From Chloroflexota bacterium (lineage in GTDB: Bacteria; Chloroflexota; UBA6077; JACCZL01), in assembly GCA_020850535.1 (NCBI GenBank), contig JADZEM010000190.1, positions 1 through 64,000 on the forward strand: a DNA stretch of 64,000 bases, in the 5' to 3' direction. The notes below the pieces were generated by a model. The model worked only from the letters and a program-made list of their open reading frames with translations. It was not told the DNA's origin and did no database searches. Numbering within the stretch: the first letter of the stretch is position 1; each line of letters starts with the position of its first letter. This document shows positions 17,584 through 32,636 of this stretch, one piece after another. The position numbers were made by a program, and so were the translations under genes.

Positions 17584-17880
17584 CTACCGCCGCAGCACCA
17601 CGAACGTCCAGGTTGCCGAGGCCGGGTTGATCGCGCCCGCCGAGGCGTTCGTCGTCCGCAGCTTGAACGAGCCGTTCGCCACCGTGTGGCAGCCCTGCAC
17701 CGCGATGCCCGCCTCCAGCGTGGCCGGCGGCGTCGCCAGCACCACGTCCCCGCTCTTGACCAGCGTGCTCGTCACGTCCGTGTCCACGCTCGCCACCGCC
17801 GTGTGGTTCGCCGGGTCAACCGTGGCCGTGAAGCTGAACCCGCTCGTGTAGACCGTCCCGCCAAACTCCGCCACTGGCAT
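17584..17880 (-). CDS. Small beta-rich phage-type structural protein
   Basis: 98 aa, ATG 17880 with AAGGAGG 7 bases upstream. The sequence is almost all beta-strand-like, with alternating V/T/A, and contains SGDVVLATPPATLEAGIAV and ASATWTFVVLRR. That pattern is seen in small proteins encoded just after major capsid genes (decoration, fibre or stopper-like). One Cys. It is the last gene of the five-gene capsid island. I recognise the type, not a named family. An outer decoration protein is the best guess. Confidence 0.6.
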   Translation of the reverse strand: MPVAEFGGTVYTSGFSFTATVDPANHTAVASVDTDVTSTLVKSGDVVLATPPATLEAGIAVQGCHTVANGSFKLRTTNASAGAINPASATWTFVVLRR

Positions 17881-17894
17881 GGTGTGCCCTCCTT

Positions 17895-17990
17895 CGTCGG
17901 GCGGTCGTGGGCCATGGATCGTGGATGGTAGGGAGGAGCCGAGGGAGATCCCCACCACCCACGATCTACGACCCACGACCGACGCGGCAG
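17895..17990. repeat. Degenerate heptamer repeats in capsid island gap
   Basis: The 112-base gap between the major capsid gene and the small beta-rich gene holds GGGCCATGGATCGTGG on one side and CCCACGATCTACGACCCACG on the other. These are members of the seven-base repeat family (GGGTCGT and variants), arranged as an inverted pair. Confidence 0.6.
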
Positions 17991-17992
17991 CG

Positions 17993-18901
17993 TCAACTGG
18001 CGCTGACGCCGTTCATCCGGGCGATGGCCGAGTCCCGCAGGACCGCCATCCCCACGTACCAGCGAATCCGCACCCGGCTCGCGTCCTTCGTCTCCAGCGG
18101 CCCCACGTCAATCGCCTCGACGCCGCCGTTCGTCAGTCCCACCAGTCCATCAGCCGGGCTGAAGTGGATCGCGTAGATCGAGGAGAAGGTGCTGCCCGAG
18201 CCGTTGTCAGCTGCCTCCGCGTCGGAGATGAAGTCCGAGACGAGCACCGGGATGCCGTCGTACAGCAACACCTGCCGCCCGAAGCTCGACTCGCCCGTCT
18301 CCACGTAGTGCGTCGAGGCCGAGAGCAGGCCCTTCAGCTTACGGCGCGTCCGCTTGCTCATCAGCAGCACGTCCGGCTTGCCGCCCTTGACGAGATCGAT
18401 CAGTTGGTCGAGCAGCGCCAGCGTCAAGGATCCGCCGGCAGCGGCCGGCGTCAGCACCTGCCCGCTCGAACCGGTGCTCGGGTACAAGACCTTCAAGCCG
18501 TCGAAGGCGTTCGGGTCGGCCGTGGCATCGCCCGAGATGACCGTCTGCTCCCACTTGCGGGCCACGTCCTTCGCCTTGAGCATCGTCTGGATGGCGCGCT
18601 GGTCGTTGACGTTCGAGCGCGCCCGCTGCACGAAATTGTCCACGTCGGCATCGCCGCCGAGGATCGCCAGGTTCACCGTCTTCTGCGTGAACGTGGCCGC
18701 CGCCTCCGACCAGACCCCGTTGACCGGGTAGAACGACGCCCCGCCGAGCGTGTTCTCCTGCGTGAACTTGAAGCTGTTCCCCTCCACCTCCAGGAACGGC
18801 ATCACCCGCAGCATCGGGCTCTCTTCGAGGATCGTCTCGATCACTCCGCGCTGCACCATATCAGTGGAGAGCTTAGCGCTCTCAGCCAGCAACAGTGGCA
18901 C
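17993..18901 (-). CDS. Phage major capsid protein (HK97-fold type)
   Basis: 302 aa, GTG 18901 with AAGGAGG 8 bases upstream. The sequence runs through the usual order of a tailed-phage capsid subunit. It has an N-terminal arm (residues 1-60), then an A/P-domain-like core with DADVDNFVQRARSNVNDQRA, the WEQTVISGD block, GGKPDVLLMSKRTRRKLKGLL, and a C-terminal beta segment (RVRIRWYVGMAVLRDSAIARMNGV). There is no long N-terminal delta domain, consistent with a separate scaffold gene upstream. It would self-assemble into a shell. No frameshift or stop is present, so the gene is intact. An encapsulin is less likely because portal and scaffold genes accompany it. Confidence 0.82.
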   Translation of the reverse strand: MPLLLAESAKLSTDMVQRGVIETILEESPMLRVMPFLEVEGNSFKFTQENTLGGASFYPVNGVWSEAAATFTQKTVNLAILGGDADVDNFVQRARSNVNDQRAIQTMLKAKDVARKWEQTVISGDATADPNAFDGLKVLYPSTGSSGQVLTPAAAGGSLTLALLDQLIDLVKGGKPDVLLMSKRTRRKLKGLLSASTHYVETGESSFGRQVLLYDGIPVLVSDFISDAEAADNGSGSTFSSIYAIHFSPADGLVGLTNGGVEAIDVGPLETKDASRVRIRWYVGMAVLRDSAIARMNGVSAS

Positions 18902-18946
18902 GATGGTCCCTCCTTCGTTGTGGGTCGCGGGGCGTGGGTCGTGGAT

Positions 18947-19225
18947 CGTGGGAGGAGTTCGGTGGAAACGTGCGACTCACAGTTGTCGTCCTGAGCGCAG
19001 CGAAGGACCTCACCCGCAGACCGTCAACGTTCGCGTCACCACCCGCAGACCGTCAACGTTCGCGTCACCACTCGCTGACCGTCAACGTTCGCGTCACCAC
19101 TCGCTGACCGTCAACGCTCGCGTCACCACTCGCTGACCGTCAACGTTCGCGTCAGCGGGTGAGGTCCTTCGCTGCGCTCAGGACGACAACTGTGAGTCGC
19201 ACGTTTCCACCGAACTCCTCCCACG
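18947..19225. repeat. Long hairpin element with perfect 71-base arms
   Basis: The arms 18947-19017 and 19155-19225 are exact reverse complements over 71 bases. They contain GTCGTCCTGAGCGCAGCGAA / TTCGCTGCGCTCAGGACGAC. The 137-base centre is mostly the 29-base tandem repeats. Heptamer repeats (GTGGGTCG / CGACCCAC) extend outward from both ends. It fills the 347-base gap between the scaffold-like and capsid genes and encodes nothing visible. A related element is at 59813-60001. Confidence 0.9.
19014..19158. repeat. 29-base direct tandem repeats (about five copies)
   Basis: Units begin at 19014, 19043, 19072, 19101 and 19130 with no spacers. The shared core is GACCGTCAACGTTCGCGTCA, with few substitutions; the last unit runs into the right hairpin arm. 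It is not a CRISPR array because nothing unique separates the units. Confidence 0.9.
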
Positions 19226-19248
19226 ACCCACGCCCCACAACCCACGCC

Positions 19249-19698
19249 CTACTTCCTCAGGCCCGTCTCGATCAGCGCCAGCGGCGACAGTCCCGCCACC
19301 GGCGTTGTGCGCGCAGACGGCGCGCCGGCCGGCACCGACTGCCGCGCCAACGCCGCCCGCGCCGTCTCCAGCGCTCGCGTGTACGCCCCTTTCGCCACGT
19401 CCACGCTCGCCAGCAGCGCTTCCTCAGTCTCCCCGCTCACCAGCTCCGGGACGATCTGCCCGGCCTGCTCGGCCAGCAGCGCCCGTCGCAGCGCGGCCAG
19501 CCCGGCCGCCTGGGCCGTCGTCAACTCCCCGGCCAGGGCGTCCCGCGCCGAGGTCGCCTCGCCCAACTGCGCCGTCAGGTCCGCCAGCCGACCTGTCGTC
19601 TCGGCCAGTTGCCCGGCCGCCCCGTCCCGCTCGACCGTCAGTGTGGAGAGCTGGCCTTCCAGCTCGGCAATCCGCGCCAACGCCTCGTCGATCTCCAT
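19249..19698 (-). CDS. Phage capsid scaffolding-like protein
   Basis: 149 aa, ATG 19698 with GGAGG 5 bases upstream. The N-terminal ~70 residues are a coiled coil (Glu/Leu/Ala heptads, LARIAELEGQL). A helical block ending in IVPELVSGETEEALLASVD follows, then a flexible Pro/Ala tail and a short basic C-terminus (LALIETGLRK). This build is typical of phage scaffold proteins encoded directly upstream of the major capsid gene, where the basic C-terminus contacts capsid subunits. No protease domain is fused. Confidence 0.68.
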   Translation of the reverse strand: MEIDEALARIAELEGQLSTLTVERDGAAGQLAETTGRLADLTAQLGEATSARDALAGELTTAQAAGLAALRRALLAEQAGQIVPELVSGETEEALLASVDVAKGAYTRALETARAALARQSVPAGAPSARTTPVAGLSPLALIETGLRK

Positions 19699-19707
19699 GT
19701 GTCCTCC

Positions 19708-19945
19708 AGTTCTCAGTTGTCAGTGGTCAGCCATCAGCAAGCAGTTCTCGGTGCTCAGCGGGCGACAGCGTCTGGCTCGCACTCGTCTCCATCACACACC
19801 TCTTCCTCACGGCTGGCAGGCCGAGGGGCGTCACGCGCCTCAATCACCTCGTTCTCGTCCCCGTCACCCGCGCCCCACAGCCGAACACCCAAGTCTCGCC
19901 CCCCATGACCCACGATCCACGACCCAAGACCCACGCCCGGGCACA
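19708..19945. repeat. Heptamer-type repeats in gap between scaffold and adaptor genes
   Basis: The 247-base gap begins with TCAGTTG/TCAGTGG/TCAGCCA seven-base units (19716-19737) and ends with CCCACGATCCACGACCCAAG-type heptamers (19908-19938). No open frame with a ribosome site is seen in between. Confidence 0.55.
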
Positions 19946-20614
19946 TCACTCGCGGGCCACCAGCCGGCGCGGCCTGACCCCGCCACGCCGTCGCCGCGCC
20001 CGCTGCTCGAACGCCCCCTGGTAGTGCAGCCGCGCGCTGACCGGATCCGCGCCCCGCTGCCGCTCGAAGCGCTGCCGCTTCGCCTCGTCGGTCGCCACCC
20101 ACCCGAGCGCCCGCGCGCAAACGTAGGACACCAGGGCATCCTCGTCTTCAGCCAGCAGATCGAGCGCCGACACGTCGTCGGCTGGCACGGTGTACGCGCC
20201 CTTGTAGCGGACCTCGATGGTCTCTCCGGTCGCGCCAGGGGCCGGGATCAGCACCAGATCGCCGGCCCACTGCTCCCAGGTCAGTTGGGCCGGCTTCAGG
20301 CCCGTCCACCCACCCAGCATCCCCAGGTCCGCCGACGGTGAGATGTCGCCGTCGCGCAGGCCGCCCCGCGCGCGGAACAGGCCGGCCGGATGCTCTACCC
20401 GCACGATCTCCAGCACGTCGTTCGGCAGGAGGTAGGTCGGATCGTTCGCCGCCGAGATGGTCTGCCAGGTACGGTCACGCGGAGCCACCCGCGACCACTC
20501 GCGAATCCCCTCCCCGATCCACCGATCGAGCAGCCCGTCCGACCACAGCTTCGTCGCGCCGGTGTCGTTCAGCTCATCGCGTACCCTCGTGCGGATGTCC
20601 GCGCGGGTCGTCAT
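19946..20614 (-). CDS. Phage head-tail adaptor/connector-like protein
   Basis: 222 aa, ATG 20614 overlapping the portal stop by 4 bases. It begins TTRADIRTRVRDELNDTG and LLDRWIGEGIREWSR, the opening of many phage neck adaptor proteins. A beta-rich middle follows (TYLLPNDVLEIVRVEH, GETIEVRYKGAYTVPADD), then a helical, strongly basic tail. In tailed phages such proteins sit under the portal ring and close the head. Here it lies between portal and scaffold, which is not the most common order. Assignment is by pattern and context. Confidence 0.62.
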   Translation of the reverse strand: MTTRADIRTRVRDELNDTGATKLWSDGLLDRWIGEGIREWSRVAPRDRTWQTISAANDPTYLLPNDVLEIVRVEHPAGLFRARGGLRDGDISPSADLGMLGGWTGLKPAQLTWEQWAGDLVLIPAPGATGETIEVRYKGAYTVPADDVSALDLLAEDEDALVSYVCARALGWVATDEAKRQRFERQRGADPVSARLHYQGAFEQRARRRRGGVRPRRLVARE

Positions 20615-22101
20615 GGCGCGTCTCCTCTCGCCCCCTCTCCGCGCCGGAGAGAAGGTCGGGGGCTGAGGTCGGATCGTTCGCCCAGGGCTGCGCGGTCGGC
20701 CTGGACACGCGCCAGCTCTTCCTCAGGGCTCTCCGTCCCCAGGTCGTCCATCGCCGTGCGGTGGCTGCGTAGCCCGGCTGCCACCAGCCGGACCTGGTTC
20801 TGCACCTCGGCCACGTCGTCCTTCGGGAGCATCGGCGGCCAGAGTACCCGCACGCGGTCGTCGTCCGCGCCCCGCTGCGGGCCATCCAGCCGCCCGCTCA
20901 CGGGCACGCTCGCCGGCGCGGACACGCCCAGCCGGCCCACCCCGAACTGTCGCGCCAGCCGCAGCACCAGCCGCGTGCGCTGCCGAAGCGCCCGCGTCCA
21001 CCACGCCCGCTTCCGCAGCGTCCGCTGCACGATGGGCCGCAGCTCCGTCTCCAGCGCCACCCCGGAGAGCAGCCGACCGCTGTCCCCGAAGGCGGCTCGC
21101 GGCGTCTCCGTCACCTCGTAGAGCGTCCGGTACAGCCGCTCGATGTGCTCGCCAACGGCGACGGCCTGCCCCTGCCACTCCAGCAGCTTGACGTCGGCGT
21201 CGGACGGGATGTCCCAGACCGTCCCCGGCCCGACCGCCAGATCCGCGTGATCCGTCACCCCGCGAAAGACGATGGGCGGGTCAGCATGGAAGCGGATCAC
21301 ATCCGCCTGGTCCGAGACCCGCTCATCGATCTCCCGGTTGATCGGGATGACGTCCACCAGGTCGGACTGGCCCCACGACTCGTTCGCCAGCGGCAGGTTC
21401 GGCACATGCACGAACGGGATCGCGCCGTACGGGTTCGGCCCCTGCCGCGTGACGGTCCGGCCGACCGTCACCTGCAGCTCGGCCGGCGTCCAGCGCTCCA
21501 CCACCTCGGCCACGCCATCGGAGCCGCACAGCCCCTCGGCCTCGCTCGCCGTCAGGCCGTACCCGCCAAGCGCAAGGTCTTCCGCAGCCAGGCTGTACGC
21601 CACCTCGACGCGCCGCAGCGTGGCCGGATCGTCGCCGGCCCACGTCGCGAAGAACGTCCGAGGGTCCACGCTCAGGATGCGGACACGCTCCGTCGCCGGC
21701 TCCCAGACGACCTTGTAGACGCCATCGCCCAGGACCGCCGCATTCTGCGCCACCTGGAGATCGACGCCCTCGACGTCGTTCTGCCAGCCGACGTCGTACA
21801 GCAGCTGCTCGGCCGCCTCGGCCCGCCGCCGCTCGCGCGCGCTCGCCTCGTGGGCCGGCAGCACCGAGAACCCGACGCCCCGCCCGAGCAGGTACGCGAT
21901 CCCCTTGTCCACCACCACGCGCGCGTAGTTGAGCACCAGATTCGAGCGGCCGTTGCGCGCCCGCTCGAAGTGCCGGCCCTCGTAGAACTCCTGATACTGG
22001 CGATATCGCCGCAGCCGCGCGCCGGCCACCGACCGCAGCCGGTCCACCGCATCGCCGGCCGGGGTCACCCCCGCCTGGAGCTGGATCACCACGCCACCCA
22101 C
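20611..22101 (-). CDS. Phage portal protein (SPP1 gp6-like)
   Basis: 496 aa. GTG 22101 is used; nearby GTGs (e.g. 22092 and 22089) are alternatives. Blocks recognised: RYRQYQEFYEGRHF, NLVLNYARVVVDKGIAYLLG, AQNAAVLGDGVYKVVWEP, WGQSDLVDVIPINREIDERVSDQADV and AFGDSGRLLSGVALETELRPIVQ. These follow the SPP1-type portal order and length, so it would form the dodecameric DNA gate of a capsid vertex. The last ~18 residues (DLSPRPSLRRGEGARGDAP) are encoded by a REP-like palindrome, an apparent late extension. The gene is intact. Terminase, expected next to it, is absent; upstream is a LexA-like box and a heptamer array. Confidence 0.85.
   Translation of the reverse strand: MGGVVIQLQAGVTPAGDAVDRLRSVAGARLRRYRQYQEFYEGRHFERARNGRSNLVLNYARVVVDKGIAYLLGRGVGFSVLPAHEASARERRRAEAAEQLLYDVGWQNDVEGVDLQVAQNAAVLGDGVYKVVWEPATERVRILSVDPRTFFATWAGDDPATLRRVEVAYSLAAEDLALGGYGLTASEAEGLCGSDGVAEVVERWTPAELQVTVGRTVTRQGPNPYGAIPFVHVPNLPLANESWGQSDLVDVIPINREIDERVSDQADVIRFHADPPIVFRGVTDHADLAVGPGTVWDIPSDADVKLLEWQGQAVAVGEHIERLYRTLYEVTETPRAAFGDSGRLLSGVALETELRPIVQRTLRKRAWWTRALRQRTRLVLRLARQFGVGRLGVSAPASVPVSGRLDGPQRGADDDRVRVLWPPMLPKDDVAEVQNQVRLVAAGLRSHRTAMDDLGTESPEEELARVQADRAALGERSDLSPRPSLRRGEGARGDAP
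20630..20680. repeat. REP-like palindrome inside the portal 3' end
   Basis: CCCCCTCTCCGCGCCGGAGA followed by AGGTCGGGGGCTGAGG matches the C-rich palindrome family seen elsewhere. It codes in frame for the portal C-terminus. Confidence 0.6.
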
Positions 22102-22192: not shown

Positions 22193-22244
22193 CAGGCTAC
22201 TCGCGGGTGGGATCGGCGGCCACACCACGGCCCGCCATGGGGCT

Positions 22245-22344
22245 GGGTCGTGGGTCGTGGGTCGTGGATCGTGGATCGTGGATCGTGGATCGTGGATCGT
22301 GGATCGTGGATCGTGGATCGTGGATCGTGGATCGTGGATCGTGG
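22245..22344. repeat. Heptamer tandem array (14 units)
   Basis: Three units GGGTCGT (22245-22265) are followed by about eleven units GGATCGT without interruption. This is the cleanest example of the seven-base repeat family in the window. It lies in the 379-base gap between the portal gene and the hydrolase gene; no gene is seen there. Confidence 0.95.
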
Positions 22345-28845: not shown

Positions 28846-30612
28846 ATGGATTCCGGTGGTGGATTCCCGGACACGTCGCGTGCAGCGCGGCGCGTCACGT
28901 CCCGCCGCTCGCTGCTGAAGGGACTGACGGCGCTGATGGCTGTCGGCGCGGTGGCCCCATTGGCGGCAGCCTGCGGCCAGCCAGCCGCTCCGGCCAAGCC
29001 CGCCGAGACCAAGCCAGCCGCTCCCGCCGCCACGACGGCTCCAGCCGCCCCGGCCGCGGCTGCGCCCACGGCAGCGCCCAAGACGGAGGCCAAGCCAGCC
29101 GAGTCCAAGCCGACCGCCGCTGCTGCGCCGGCCAAGCCGGCCGCCGGCGAGCCGAAGAAGGGCGGCACCCTCAAGTGGGCCATCATCGGCGAGCCGCCAG
29201 CCCTCGACGTGCAGTTCACCACCGCCACCGTGACGGCCAACATCGGCTGGCACATCTGGGAAGGCCTGTTCACCGTGAACGCGGCCCAGGCGCCCAAGAT
29301 GGACCTGCTTGAGAAGTATGAGGGCAGCACCGACGGCAAGAAGGTCACCATGACGTTGCGGAAGGGCGTCCCTTTCCACAACGACAAGGAGATGACCTCG
29401 GCGGATGCCGTCGCCTCGCTCAAGCGGTACGGCGAGATCACGGCGCGCGGCAAGGGCATCTTCGCCGTGATGGAGTCCATCGACGCGCCGGACAAGTACA
29501 CCGTCACCATGAGCTTCAAGGAACCCCGCGCGACGATCCTCCCGATCTTCCTCTCGCGGCCCGAAGCCCTCATCATGCCCGCCGAGATCGCCCAGAAGGC
29601 CGGCAAGGACAAGGCGACCGAGTTCATCGGCACCGGCCCGTACAAGTTCGTCGAGCACCAGCCGGATCGCCATGTGAAGATCGGCCGGTTCGACAAGTAC
29701 GCCGCCCGTGACGAGAAGGCCGACGGCCCGTCGGGCAAGAAGGTCGCCTACCTCGACGAGATCCAGTTCATCCCCGTGCCCGAGGAGTCCGTCCGCGCGG
29801 ACGGCGTCGGCACCGGCGAGTACCACTACGGCGATTCGCTGGCCCCCGACAGCTACGCCCGCCTCAAGGGCGTCCCGAACGTCGAGGCCGACATCGGCAA
29901 GCCGTACTACTGGGCTGCCGCCTTCTTCAACAAGAAGGAAGGCGTCTTCTCCAACGTCAAGCTGCGCCAGGCGCTCCAGTGGGCCGTCTCGGTCGAGCCA
30001 GTCGCCGCCGCCGCCTTCGGCATCCCCGAGTTCTACCGCATCGATCCGAGCATGGCCGCGCCGGAGACGCCCTGGTTCTCGGACGTCGGCAAGGACGTCT
30101 GGAACAAGCCCGATCTGGAAAAGGCGAAGGCGCTCATCAAGGAAGCTGGCTACGACGGCACGCCGATCCGCTGGCTCTCCACGAAAGAGTACTTCTACAA
30201 CTACAACGCGGCCGTGGTCTACAAGCAGCAGCTTGAGGCCGTCGGCTTCAAGGTCGATCTCCAGGTGATGGACTGGGCCACCCTGATCAAGCGCCGCTCC
30301 GATCCGAAGGAGTACGACGTCTTCATCACCGGCACCAGCTCCTACACCCACCCGATCTTGCAGAACATCTTCGGCGAAGGCTGGCCGGGCTGGTGGGCCC
30401 TGCCGGAGAAGAACGAAGTCGCCGCCAGGGTCATGACGGAGACCGATCCGAAGAAGCAGCAGGAGCTGATCGTCAAGCTCCAGGAACTGGTCTACCAGGA
30501 CGTCCCCTGCCACAAGTACGGCGAGTACTTCGGCCTGCGCGCCCGCTCCACCAAACTGCAGGGCACCATCAATCCGCCAGATCCATTCATGTGGAACGCC
30601 TGGCTGAGCTGA
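28846..30612 (+). CDS. ABC transporter substrate-binding protein, family 5 (Tat lipoprotein), copy 1
   Basis: 588 aa, ATG 28846 with GAGGAGGT 5 bases upstream. The N-terminus SRRSLLKGLTALMAVG...AAACG is a twin-arginine signal with a lipobox, so it is exported folded and lipid-anchored. An Ala/Pro/Lys linker (~residues 48-105) is followed by the family 5 core: KKGGTLKWAIIGEPPALD, WEGLFTV, MTLRKGVPFHNDKEMTSADA and GTGPYKFVEH. Family 5 proteins bind peptides, nickel or related solutes. It is highly similar along its length to the next gene (30840). A strong terminator separates the two, so they can be expressed separately. Confidence 0.92.
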   Translation: MDSGGGFPDTSRAARRVTSRRSLLKGLTALMAVGAVAPLAAACGQPAAPAKPAETKPAAPAATTAPAAPAAAAPTAAPKTEAKPAESKPTAAAAPAKPAAGEPKKGGTLKWAIIGEPPALDVQFTTATVTANIGWHIWEGLFTVNAAQAPKMDLLEKYEGSTDGKKVTMTLRKGVPFHNDKEMTSADAVASLKRYGEITARGKGIFAVMESIDAPDKYTVTMSFKEPRATILPIFLSRPEALIMPAEIAQKAGKDKATEFIGTGPYKFVEHQPDRHVKIGRFDKYAARDEKADGPSGKKVAYLDEIQFIPVPEESVRADGVGTGEYHYGDSLAPDSYARLKGVPNVEADIGKPYYWAAAFFNKKEGVFSNVKLRQALQWAVSVEPVAAAAFGIPEFYRIDPSMAAPETPWFSDVGKDVWNKPDLEKAKALIKEAGYDGTPIRWLSTKEYFYNYNAAVVYKQQLEAVGFKVDLQVMDWATLIKRRSDPKEYDVFITGTSSYTHPILQNIFGEGWPGWWALPEKNEVAARVMTETDPKKQQELIVKLQELVYQDVPCHKYGEYFGLRARSTKLQGTINPPDPFMWNAWLS

Positions 30613-30647
30613 CCGTAGGAGCGCTCACCAAACGTTCTCGAACCGCG

Positions 30648-30678
30648 ACAGGCCCCCGGAATCATTCCGGGGGCCTGT
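30648..30678 (+). terminator. Intrinsic terminator after first binding-protein gene
   Basis: Fifteen-base arms (ACAGGCCCCCGGAAT and its complement) around a single C, followed by CTTGTTGTTC. This is the best-formed Rho-independent terminator in the window. Confidence 0.88.
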
Positions 30679-30762
30679 CTTGTTGTTCAGCATGATGAAA
30701 CGATGCAGCAAGCTGGCCCGTACATCTTGTGCAATTCAGGGCTGTACGCAGCGGAAACGCGC

Positions 30763-30771
30763 TGATATACT
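30763..30771 (+). promoter_or_regulatory. Extended -10 promoter for second binding-protein gene
   Basis: TGATATACT (extended -10, TGnTATACT) ends at 30771; the -35 region is weak (CTGTAC at 30742). Transcription would start near 30778, some 60 bases before the ATG at 30840. Confidence 0.5.
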
Positions 30772-30839
30772 CGCCGCCACATCTCGGGGCCGGCTGTCGG
30801 TTGCCGGCGCTGGGAAGGTCGACACGAAGGAGGTCCGTC

Positions 30840-32636
30840 ATGGAGTCGTCCTCTGGCTTCAGCGAGGCCACCCCGCACGCTGTGCGTCGGGTGACATCGC
30901 GCCGTTCGCTCCTCAAGGGGCTCACTGCGCTGATGGCGGTGGGCGCCGTTGCGCCGTTAGCCGCCGCCTGCGGCCAGCAAGCGCCGGCGGCCAAGCCTGC
31001 CGAGAGCAAGCCGGCCGAGACCAAGCCGGCCGCGCCAGCCGCCACGACCGCCCCAGCCGCCCCGGCAGCCGCTGCCCCAACGGCCGCCCCGAAGACCGAA
31101 GCGAAGCCCGCCGAGGCCGCCAAGCCCGCCGAGGCTGCGAAGCCGGCAGCCGCCGCCGCCAAGCCAGCCGGCGAGCCGAAGAAGGGTGGCACCCTCAAGT
31201 GGGCCGTCATCGGCGAGCCGCCGGCCCTCGACCCCGTCTTCACCACCGCGACCGTCACGGCCAACTTCGGCTGGCACGTCTTCGAGGGGCTGTTCACCCG
31301 CGACTCGAAGAACGGCCCCAAGATGGACCTGCTTGAGAAGTACGAGCCGAGCAGCGACGGCAAGAAGGTCACCATGACGCTGCGGAAGGGCGTGCTCTTC
31401 CACAACGACAAGGAGCTGACCTCCGCCGACGTCGAAGCCTCGCTCAAGCGCTACGCCGACATCCAGGCGTCTGGCAAGCTGGTCTTCTCCTCGCTCGACA
31501 CCATGACCGTCCCCGACAAGTACACCGTCGAATTGAGCTTCAAGGAGCCGCGCGCGGGCATCCTGCCGGTCTTCCTCTCGCGCATCGCGGCGGCCGTCAT
31601 GCCCGCCGAAGACGTCGCGAAGTACGGGAAGGAGAAGAACACCGCGCCCATCGGCACCGGGCCGTACAAGTTCGTCGAGCACCTGCCAGACCGGATGGTC
31701 CGCATGCAGCGGTTCGACAAGTACGTCGCCCGTGAGGATCCCGCCGACGGCCCGGCCGGCAAGAAGGTCGCCTACATCGACGAGATCCAGTACATCCCCG
31801 TCCCCGAAGAGTCCGTCCGCGCGGACGGCGTCGGCACCGGCGAGTACCACTACGGCGACTCGCTCGCTCCCGACAGCTACGCCCGCGTCAAGGGCGTCCC
31901 GAACGTCGAGGCCGACATCGGCAAGCCGTACTACTGGGCCGTCGCCCACATGAACAAGAAGGAAGGCCTCTTCACCAACGTGAAGCTGCGACAGGCCGTC
32001 CTCGCGGCCATCAAGATCGAGCCCATCGCCGCCGCCGCGTTCGGCGTGCCGGAGTTCTATCGCATCGATCCCGGCATCGCCGCCCCCGAGACTCCCTGGT
32101 TCACGGACGAGGGCAAAGAGCTCTTCAACAAGGCCGACGCCGAGAAGGCCAAAGCCCTCCTCAAGGAAGCCAACTACGACGGCACGCCGATCCGTTGGAT
32201 GTCCACCAAGGAGTACTTCTACAACTACAACGCTGGCGTCGTCTTCAAGCAACAGCTGGAGGCGGTCGGCTTCAAGGTCGATCTCCAGGTGATGGACTGG
32301 GCCACCCTGGTCAAGCGGCGCTCGGACTCCAAGGAGTACGACATCTTCGTGACGGCCCACGAGTCGTACGCCCACCCGGTCCTGCAGCCCTTCATGGGCG
32401 ACATCTGGCCGGGCTGGTGGACCCTCCCCGCCAAGAACGAGCTCGCGGCCAAGATCATGGCCGAGACCGACACCGCCAGGCAGATGGACCAGATCAAGCA
32501 GTTGCAGAAGCTCTTCTACGAAGACGTCCCCGGCGTCAAGTACGGCGAGTACTTCGTGCTCCGCGCGCGCTCCAGCAAGGTCAAGGGCACCATCAATCCC
32601 TCCGACCCGTACTTCTGGAACGCCTGGATCGAGTAG
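30840..32636 (+). CDS. ABC transporter substrate-binding protein, family 5 (Tat lipoprotein), copy 2
   Basis: 598 aa, ATG 30840 with AAGGAGGT 6 bases upstream. It has the same architecture as the copy at 28846: a Tat signal (SRRSLLKGLTALMAVG), lipobox Cys, an Ala/Pro/Lys linker with an AKPAE-type repeat, and the family 5 core (EGLFTRDSKNGPKMDLLEKY, LRKGVLFHNDKELTSADVEA, GTGPYKFVEHLP). Long stretches are identical in the two (e.g. VPEESVRADGVGTGEYHYGD). Differences cluster in patches likely to line the binding cleft, suggesting duplication with altered ligand preference. The DppB/DppC-type permeases follow 340 bases downstream. Confidence 0.92.
   Translation: MESSSGFSEATPHAVRRVTSRRSLLKGLTALMAVGAVAPLAAACGQQAPAAKPAESKPAETKPAAPAATTAPAAPAAAAPTAAPKTEAKPAEAAKPAEAAKPAAAAAKPAGEPKKGGTLKWAVIGEPPALDPVFTTATVTANFGWHVFEGLFTRDSKNGPKMDLLEKYEPSSDGKKVTMTLRKGVLFHNDKELTSADVEASLKRYADIQASGKLVFSSLDTMTVPDKYTVELSFKEPRAGILPVFLSRIAAAVMPAEDVAKYGKEKNTAPIGTGPYKFVEHLPDRMVRMQRFDKYVAREDPADGPAGKKVAYIDEIQYIPVPEESVRADGVGTGEYHYGDSLAPDSYARVKGVPNVEADIGKPYYWAVAHMNKKEGLFTNVKLRQAVLAAIKIEPIAAAAFGVPEFYRIDPGIAAPETPWFTDEGKELFNKADAEKAKALLKEANYDGTPIRWMSTKEYFYNYNAGVVFKQQLEAVGFKVDLQVMDWATLVKRRSDSKEYDIFVTAHESYAHPVLQPFMGDIWPGWWTLPAKNELAAKIMAETDTARQMDQIKQLQKLFYEDVPGVKYGEYFVLRARSSKVKGTINPSDPYFWNAWIE

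Follow-up and report, generated by a model that had tools for sequence, protein, structure and literature searches.

Scattered head, terminase and nozzle genes in a Chloroflexota genome: a candidate podovirus-type gene transfer agent

The window, that is, the whole stretch of 64,000 nucleotides analysed here from a Chloroflexota bacterium, contains a block of five phage-head genes whose matching terminase and tail nozzle are encoded elsewhere in the same genome. We consider the chances to be slightly better than even that this block encodes the head of a podovirus-type particle whose genes reside in the chromosome and which belongs to the gene-transfer-agent (GTA) kind. The identities of the genes, their dispersal, their presence as single copies and the selection acting on the genes of the window are observed, as are the conservation of a related cluster in another genus of the phylum (g49) and its congruence with the host tree. 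We hold more tentatively, at somewhat below even, the wider proposition of an old and widespread podovirus-type GTA in Chloroflexota (the window's class, Dehalococcoidia and Thermomicrobia). Such a system would derive from temperate podoviruses of 14-23 kb, and its motor, head and nozzle genes would have drifted to separate loci in several lineages while still serving to package and transfer host DNA.

The head block and the constraint on its genes

The five genes, all on the minus strand, and the repeats in and next to the block are as follows.

22239..22344, no strand: heptamer array upstream of the portal gene, a member of a genome-wide repeat family
20611..22101, minus strand: portal protein, 496 aa; GTG start; 4-base overlap with the start of the adaptor gene
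19946..20614, minus strand: head-tail adaptor of SU10 type, 222 aa (PF24175 SU10_adaptor, E 5e-16)
19699..19945, no strand: adaptor-scaffold gap, with a host heptamer-repeat stretch at 19903-19938
19249..19698, minus strand: scaffold-like protein, 149 aa; adjoins the major capsid gene; 42-60% identity in relatives
18902..19248, no strand: scaffold-capsid gap, filled with repeats, a 29-bp tandem array (19011-19155) lying within a 102-nt inverted repeat (18920-19021 / 19151-19252)
17993..18901, minus strand: major capsid protein (MCP) of HK97/SU10 type, 302 aa (phrog_212 major head protein, 8e-74; PF17236 SU10_MCP)
17881..17992, no strand: gap between the MCP gene and the small gene, with an inverted heptamer-repeat pair (17902-17934 / 17949-17981)
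17584..17880, minus strand: small beta-sandwich protein, 98 aa; start ATG 17880

In profile searches the portal matches PF05133 (E 2e-25) and phrog_64 (9e-44); it occurs once in the window's genome (G000) and retains all 31 positions that are invariant across the other 11 rows of its alignment. The MCP, which is 60-86% identical to its close relatives, has likewise lost none of the positions at which the other rows of its alignment all agree. The scaffold is named from its position and conservation, because its PHROG matches are weak. For the small gene, the ATG at 17880 is preferred over the GTG of a 130-aa ORF because of the ribosome-binding site cgacgaaggaggg and because its relatives, which sit 3' of the MCP gene in seven other loci, begin there. 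Its predicted structure (pLDDT 80) weakly resembles the HK620 tailspike and H-type lectins (E 0.05 or worse), and the protein is a possible fibre tip or head decoration.

Since the genome has a GC content of 69%, with GC3 of about 0.9, open frames alone say little, and intactness was therefore judged from dN/dS and conserved residues. The comparison was made by the NG86 method with a near relative, the collinear IMG/VR contig L023, whose genes are 64-86% identical to those of the window. The ratios obtained were 0.22 for the portal, 0.21 for the adaptor, 0.34 for the scaffold, 0.15 for the MCP and 0.20 for the small gene, values that are rough given the high dS (0.6-0.9). Purifying selection acts on all five genes. 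The preliminary description, made from the bare sequence, was correct in recognising five phage-head genes on the minus strand: all of the ORFs exist and form a conserved block in relatives. It had relied on open frames for their intactness, a conclusion that stands on the evidence of dN/dS and conserved residues while its original argument is weak at this GC content. Its statement that the genes have good ribosome sites holds for four of the five, the portal gene having no clear Shine-Dalgarno site.

The repeats in the gaps belong in part to the host. The heptamer family (CCACGAT/CCACGAC units), whose motif is also contained in the scaffold-capsid gap, gave 426 matches in the genome with a 23-base probe and none with the reversed probe. 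These host-type repeats, together with the constrained coding parts, argue for a long residence of the block in the chromosome. The genes on either side are ordinary chromosomal ones, encoding an LVIVD protein, a luciferase-like protein and DUF1501 proteins on one flank and alpha/beta hydrolase and radical SAM proteins on the other. No terminase, tail, lysis, integrase or replication genes were found beside the block in the window, and no tRNA was found in the window. An intact prophage would have integrase and replication genes adjoining its structural genes; none do so in the window, and none were seen beside the clusters of relatives in the order.

The terminase and the nozzle at other loci of the genome

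A search of the window's genome with the large terminase (TerL) of an order relative, G010, revealed a single locus, at positions 12405-13982 of contig C65, encoding an intact protein of 525 aa. Its Walker A (PRQSGKN), Walker B (LLECDEAQD) and nuclease (D...D...HDD) motifs are intact, and it retains 72 of the 75 positions that are invariant in the other 11 rows, on a long branch of the tree (0.99). The family profile finds its match in the nuclease domain of TerL proteins whose structures have been solved. A search of the same genome with PF03354 gave no match, because members of this TerL family give only weak Pfam scores (PF17289, E 0.01-0.0007). A query with the 600-aa protein encoded after the MCP in relatives led to one full-length homologue on contig C16 (54767-56557). 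Its AlphaFold model (pLDDT 79) has as its best Foldseek matches in the PDB the Pa223 tail, P22 gp10, Sf6 gp8 and VP1 (E 5e-12 to 5e-10), and the BFVD matches include one named 'P22 Gp10'; on the strength of this model, the protein is identified as a tail nozzle with the P22 gp10 fold. It retains only 50 of 58 otherwise invariant positions.

The MCP, portal, TerL and nozzle were each found once in the genome, with the head block, TerL and nozzle on three separate contigs. The assembly consists of 227 contigs with 4.6% contamination, but misbinning is unlikely because the three contigs concerned (88, 51 and 93 kb) share a tetranucleotide signature, with mutual correlations of 0.93-0.96 as against at most 0.86 to relatives. 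A holin was not detected in the genome, and no small terminase (TerS) was found on these three contigs. Heptamer arrays also occur on C16, where one short stretch directly follows the nozzle gene. Of the neighbours near the nozzle, only one gene, about 9 kb away and 72.9% identical, is common to G000 and its relative G002. Downstream of the nozzle gene (locus L104, 12733-18110), a Y-family polymerase (ImuB-like, with a weak Pfam match) is accompanied by a DnaE-type polymerase, a pair that resembles an SOS mutagenesis cassette and may hint at damage-linked regulation.

We propose that the MCP would assemble on the scaffold around the portal, that the unlinked TerL would pump DNA into the head, and that the adaptor, together with the P22 gp10-like nozzle from its own separate locus, would close it and form a short tail. 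Since no replication or integration genes lie beside the block, the packaged DNA would be pieces of the host chromosome. From the gene set we infer that the parts may be co-expressed and assembled, with headful packaging of host DNA followed by release and delivery to other cells. Points that count against this reading are the long branch of TerL, the lower conservation of the nozzle, the undetected holin and the broken TerL of the relative G002.

The preliminary description had found no terminase or tail, which is true of the locus and not of the genome. Its minimal capsid island is accordingly not upheld, since the matching terminase and nozzle are encoded singly elsewhere and lie adjacent to the block in relatives. 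It had also named adjacent terminase or tail genes in related strains as the sign of a simple deletion; such adjacency does occur in relatives, but in G000 the genes are displaced rather than deleted. An alternative sign of a recent remnant, absence from relatives together with relaxed selection, was not seen: the block is found again in relatives, whose MCPs are 60-73% identical, and selection is purifying, not relaxed (dN/dS 0.15-0.34). A domesticated shell that packages DNA, which it had suggested, is right in the direction to which the evidence points, though the shell is not a bare one, its motor and nozzle being encoded elsewhere.

Relatives in hosts and in phages

MCP relatives at 60-73% identity are present in seven of the 15 other genomes of the window's order, a recurrence which implies that the head block is not there by chance. 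In the order relatives G010 and G004 the genes are linked, with variations, in the order terL, portal, adaptor, scaffold, MCP, a small gene in some cases, nozzle and holin, and two IMG/VR contigs (L024 and L026) carry parts of the same linked order. The arrangement portal-adaptor-scaffold-MCP, which had been described as unusual, is thus normal in this bacterial order. TerL lies apart from the portal in G006 and G008 too, and it is broken in G002. In G002 (locus L041, 18599-19982), the place that the portal occupies in G000, here between the adaptor and the end of the contig, holds three small genes, two of them with weak tail matches (BppU_N and tail fibre). The TerL gene of G008 (locus L088; C22, 11400-13720) is split by about 0.7 kb ending in a typical intein C-terminal motif (GKGWFIANGVVV), which is likely to represent an intein in the terminase. 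A comparison of the flanks of G000 with those of relatives was uninformative, gene order being strongly scrambled in the order, and a common LVIVD/DUF1501/DUF1800 neighbourhood was dropped as a candidate since orientations differ between genomes.

At the level of the class, the TerL profile matches 15 of the 22 genomes that are at least 85% complete. G016-G019 and other members carry a related cluster with a TerS-like gene, TerL, other types of portal and MCP, an adaptor and a nozzle-like protein, in some cases with an amidase and/or a holin; parts of it also occur in Thermomicrobium and Thermalbibacter. Inspection of the gene calls around the host clusters revealed no integrase.

The strongest instance outside the window's genome is g49, a genus with small genomes that is probably Dehalogenimonas and for which seven of the eight genomes are single contigs. 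One MCP of the related cluster, with 78-84% identity, is present in seven of its eight species, and the TerS-TerL pair occurs in 11 of the 11 genomes of its family. This pair lies away from the head-tail cluster in G055, G094, G101, G103 and G105, of which the first four are single-contig genomes. The portal, adaptor and nozzle trees of the genus have the topology of rpoB (exact Mantel 3/720, 4/5040 and 1/5040, respectively), with a weaker agreement for the MCP (49/720). Congruence with rpoB extends across the phylum (r 0.93 for the MCP, 0.82 for TerL and 0.80 for the adaptor), whereas the MCP distances of the window's order, taken by itself, show no significant correlation with those of rpoB (r 0.19, p 0.27). 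In the sister genus g33 (L205, L206 and L207), a relic of the cluster is found at one syntenic locus, with the portal truncated or missing, the MCP absent, a partial nozzle in two of three and an intact-looking TerS-TerL pair.

Head-block genes are also found on many IMG/VR contigs. Two of these, L270 (13,792 bases) and L281 (14,763 bases), have exact terminal overlaps of 127 and 123 bases, respectively, and are probably complete, unusually small tailed phages of about 14 kb, circular or terminally repeated. The 22.9-kb contig L219 encodes an integrase and an MCP 68% identical to that of the window, and one of its genes weakly matches a polymerase-X-type gene; in the MCP tree it nests within the clade of the order. 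Pfam integrase matches were obtained for L219, L229 and L270, and similar genes were seen in L225 and L238. The tiny podoviruses L219 and L270 resemble the host clusters in having TerL, portal, scaffold, MCP, adaptor and nozzle, and L219 also has the small gene; they differ, as does L229, in carrying a tyrosine recombinase, which, like the polymerase-X-type gene of L229, was not seen beside host clusters. Because such small integrase-bearing phages exist and L219 lies within the clade of the order, a tiny temperate podovirus is the probable ancestor. That nesting and the failure of MCP distances to follow rpoB make recent phage exchange possible in the order, and more than one capture is possible. 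The best matches among cultured phages stand at 39% for the MCP (Streptomyces phage Rowa) and 33% for TerL (Bacillus phage vB_BboS-125). Phages SU10 and P22 share the SU10-type MCP and adaptor families and the P22 gp10 nozzle fold at very low sequence identity; unlike them, the system of G000 has no complete phage genome.

Alternative readings and comparison with known agents

The existence in IMG/VR of tiny temperate podoviruses (14-23 kb, one with 68% capsid identity) makes a stalled prophage relic the main rival in the window's order. According to this reading, an L219-like phage lost its integrase and replication genes and was rearranged apart, and the particle is no longer made. The integrase-bearing relatives, the position of L219 inside the clade, the scrambled gene order, the decayed cluster of g33 and the broken TerL of G002 are all in its favour. 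We nevertheless regard it as rather unlikely, though a serious contender, as selection on each of the five window genes is purifying, catalytic and invariant residues are retained, head, motor and nozzle remain one copy each despite dispersal, and the cluster of g49 is congruent with the host tree. The same conservation would be expected of a particle kept by the host for another use, such as a PBSX-like killing particle or a storage or secretion shell, in which the nozzle and the lectin-like small protein could have a role in binding. This possibility appears improbable to us, for the conserved ATPase and nuclease motifs of TerL and a full portal-adaptor-nozzle channel imply both the packaging and the passage of DNA.

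Capsid-forming PICIs have an integrase and regulators and their own capsid and packaging genes, and take tails from a helper. A satellite whose capsid a helper phage fills or tails would account for a locus that itself has no integrase, tail or terminase. We give this reading very little weight: the genome encodes its own terminase and nozzle, integrase and regulatory genes of the PICI kind are missing, and related clusters track host phylogeny. Membership of that satellite family was rejected on the lack of an integrase and the presence of a nozzle gene in the same genome. Encapsulins combine an HK97 shell with a cargo enzyme and have no portal or terminase, and the presence of portal, adaptor and TerL excludes them as well. 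The satellite and encapsulin-like readings of the preliminary description thus find no support.

The GTA-kind particle that we favour can be set against the published definition, which comprises caudoviricete-derived proteins or particles, full endogenisation (often at several loci), mostly vertical inheritance, packaging of mostly random host DNA, a genome of its own too large or dispersed to be packaged whole, and delivery to other cells (PMC9662315). Derivation from caudoviricetes is established by one of the two accepted routes, the similarity, by HMM or fold, of portal, MCP, adaptor, TerL and nozzle. The endogenised multi-locus genome is evident from the three contigs of G000 and from the separation of TerS-TerL in the single-contig genomes G055, G094, G101 and G103. 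Vertical inheritance is seen in g49 and broadly across the phylum, and is not significant for the MCP within the window's order. Dispersal over unlinked loci argues against the joint packaging of the agent's own genes. As these sequence data establish two of the six criteria, we do not class the system as a proven GTA.

To our knowledge, very few GTAs have been described outside Alphaproteobacteria. RcGTA differs in its siphovirus-type tail and in having other tail proteins. It and other alphaproteobacterial agents are alike to the present system in being endogenous, multi-locus, vertically inherited and caudoviricete-derived (PMC9662315). Among published systems, the nearest in the genes that it contains and in their split arrangement is FpGTA of Faecalibacterium prausnitzii, presented in 2026 as the first podovirus-like GTA (PMC12946183). 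Its TerS (lacking an obvious DNA-binding domain), TerL, portal, scaffold and MCP form one operon, found in 12 of 12 Faecalibacterium genomes examined, and a second operon about 125 kb away holds further structural and lysis genes, with no replication genes (PMC12946183). FpGTA belongs to a different phylum and has been demonstrated to package DNA of about 9 kb, whereas the system of G000 is known from its genes and is likened to it by content and layout; moreover, its genes occupy at least three loci, with TerL standing alone, rather than two operons.

No report of a GTA in Chloroflexota, or in Dehalogenimonas, was found in the open literature. If our proposition is true, a GTA lineage would exist in a phylum that includes organohalide-respiring bacteria of use in bioremediation, whose cultured hosts allow direct tests of transfer, and the tiny-phage relatives, the clusters kept by hosts and the relics of g33 would together open to study a route from phage to GTA to loss. 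More generally, no capsid island lacking a terminase should be described as minimal until the whole genome has been searched. Apart from the head block, the window encodes at 28846-32636 a tandem pair of similar proteins, 588 and 598 aa long, that are almost identical at their N-termini; permease-like genes come next. The pair appears to have arisen by recent duplication, and a transporter binding protein may be what was duplicated.
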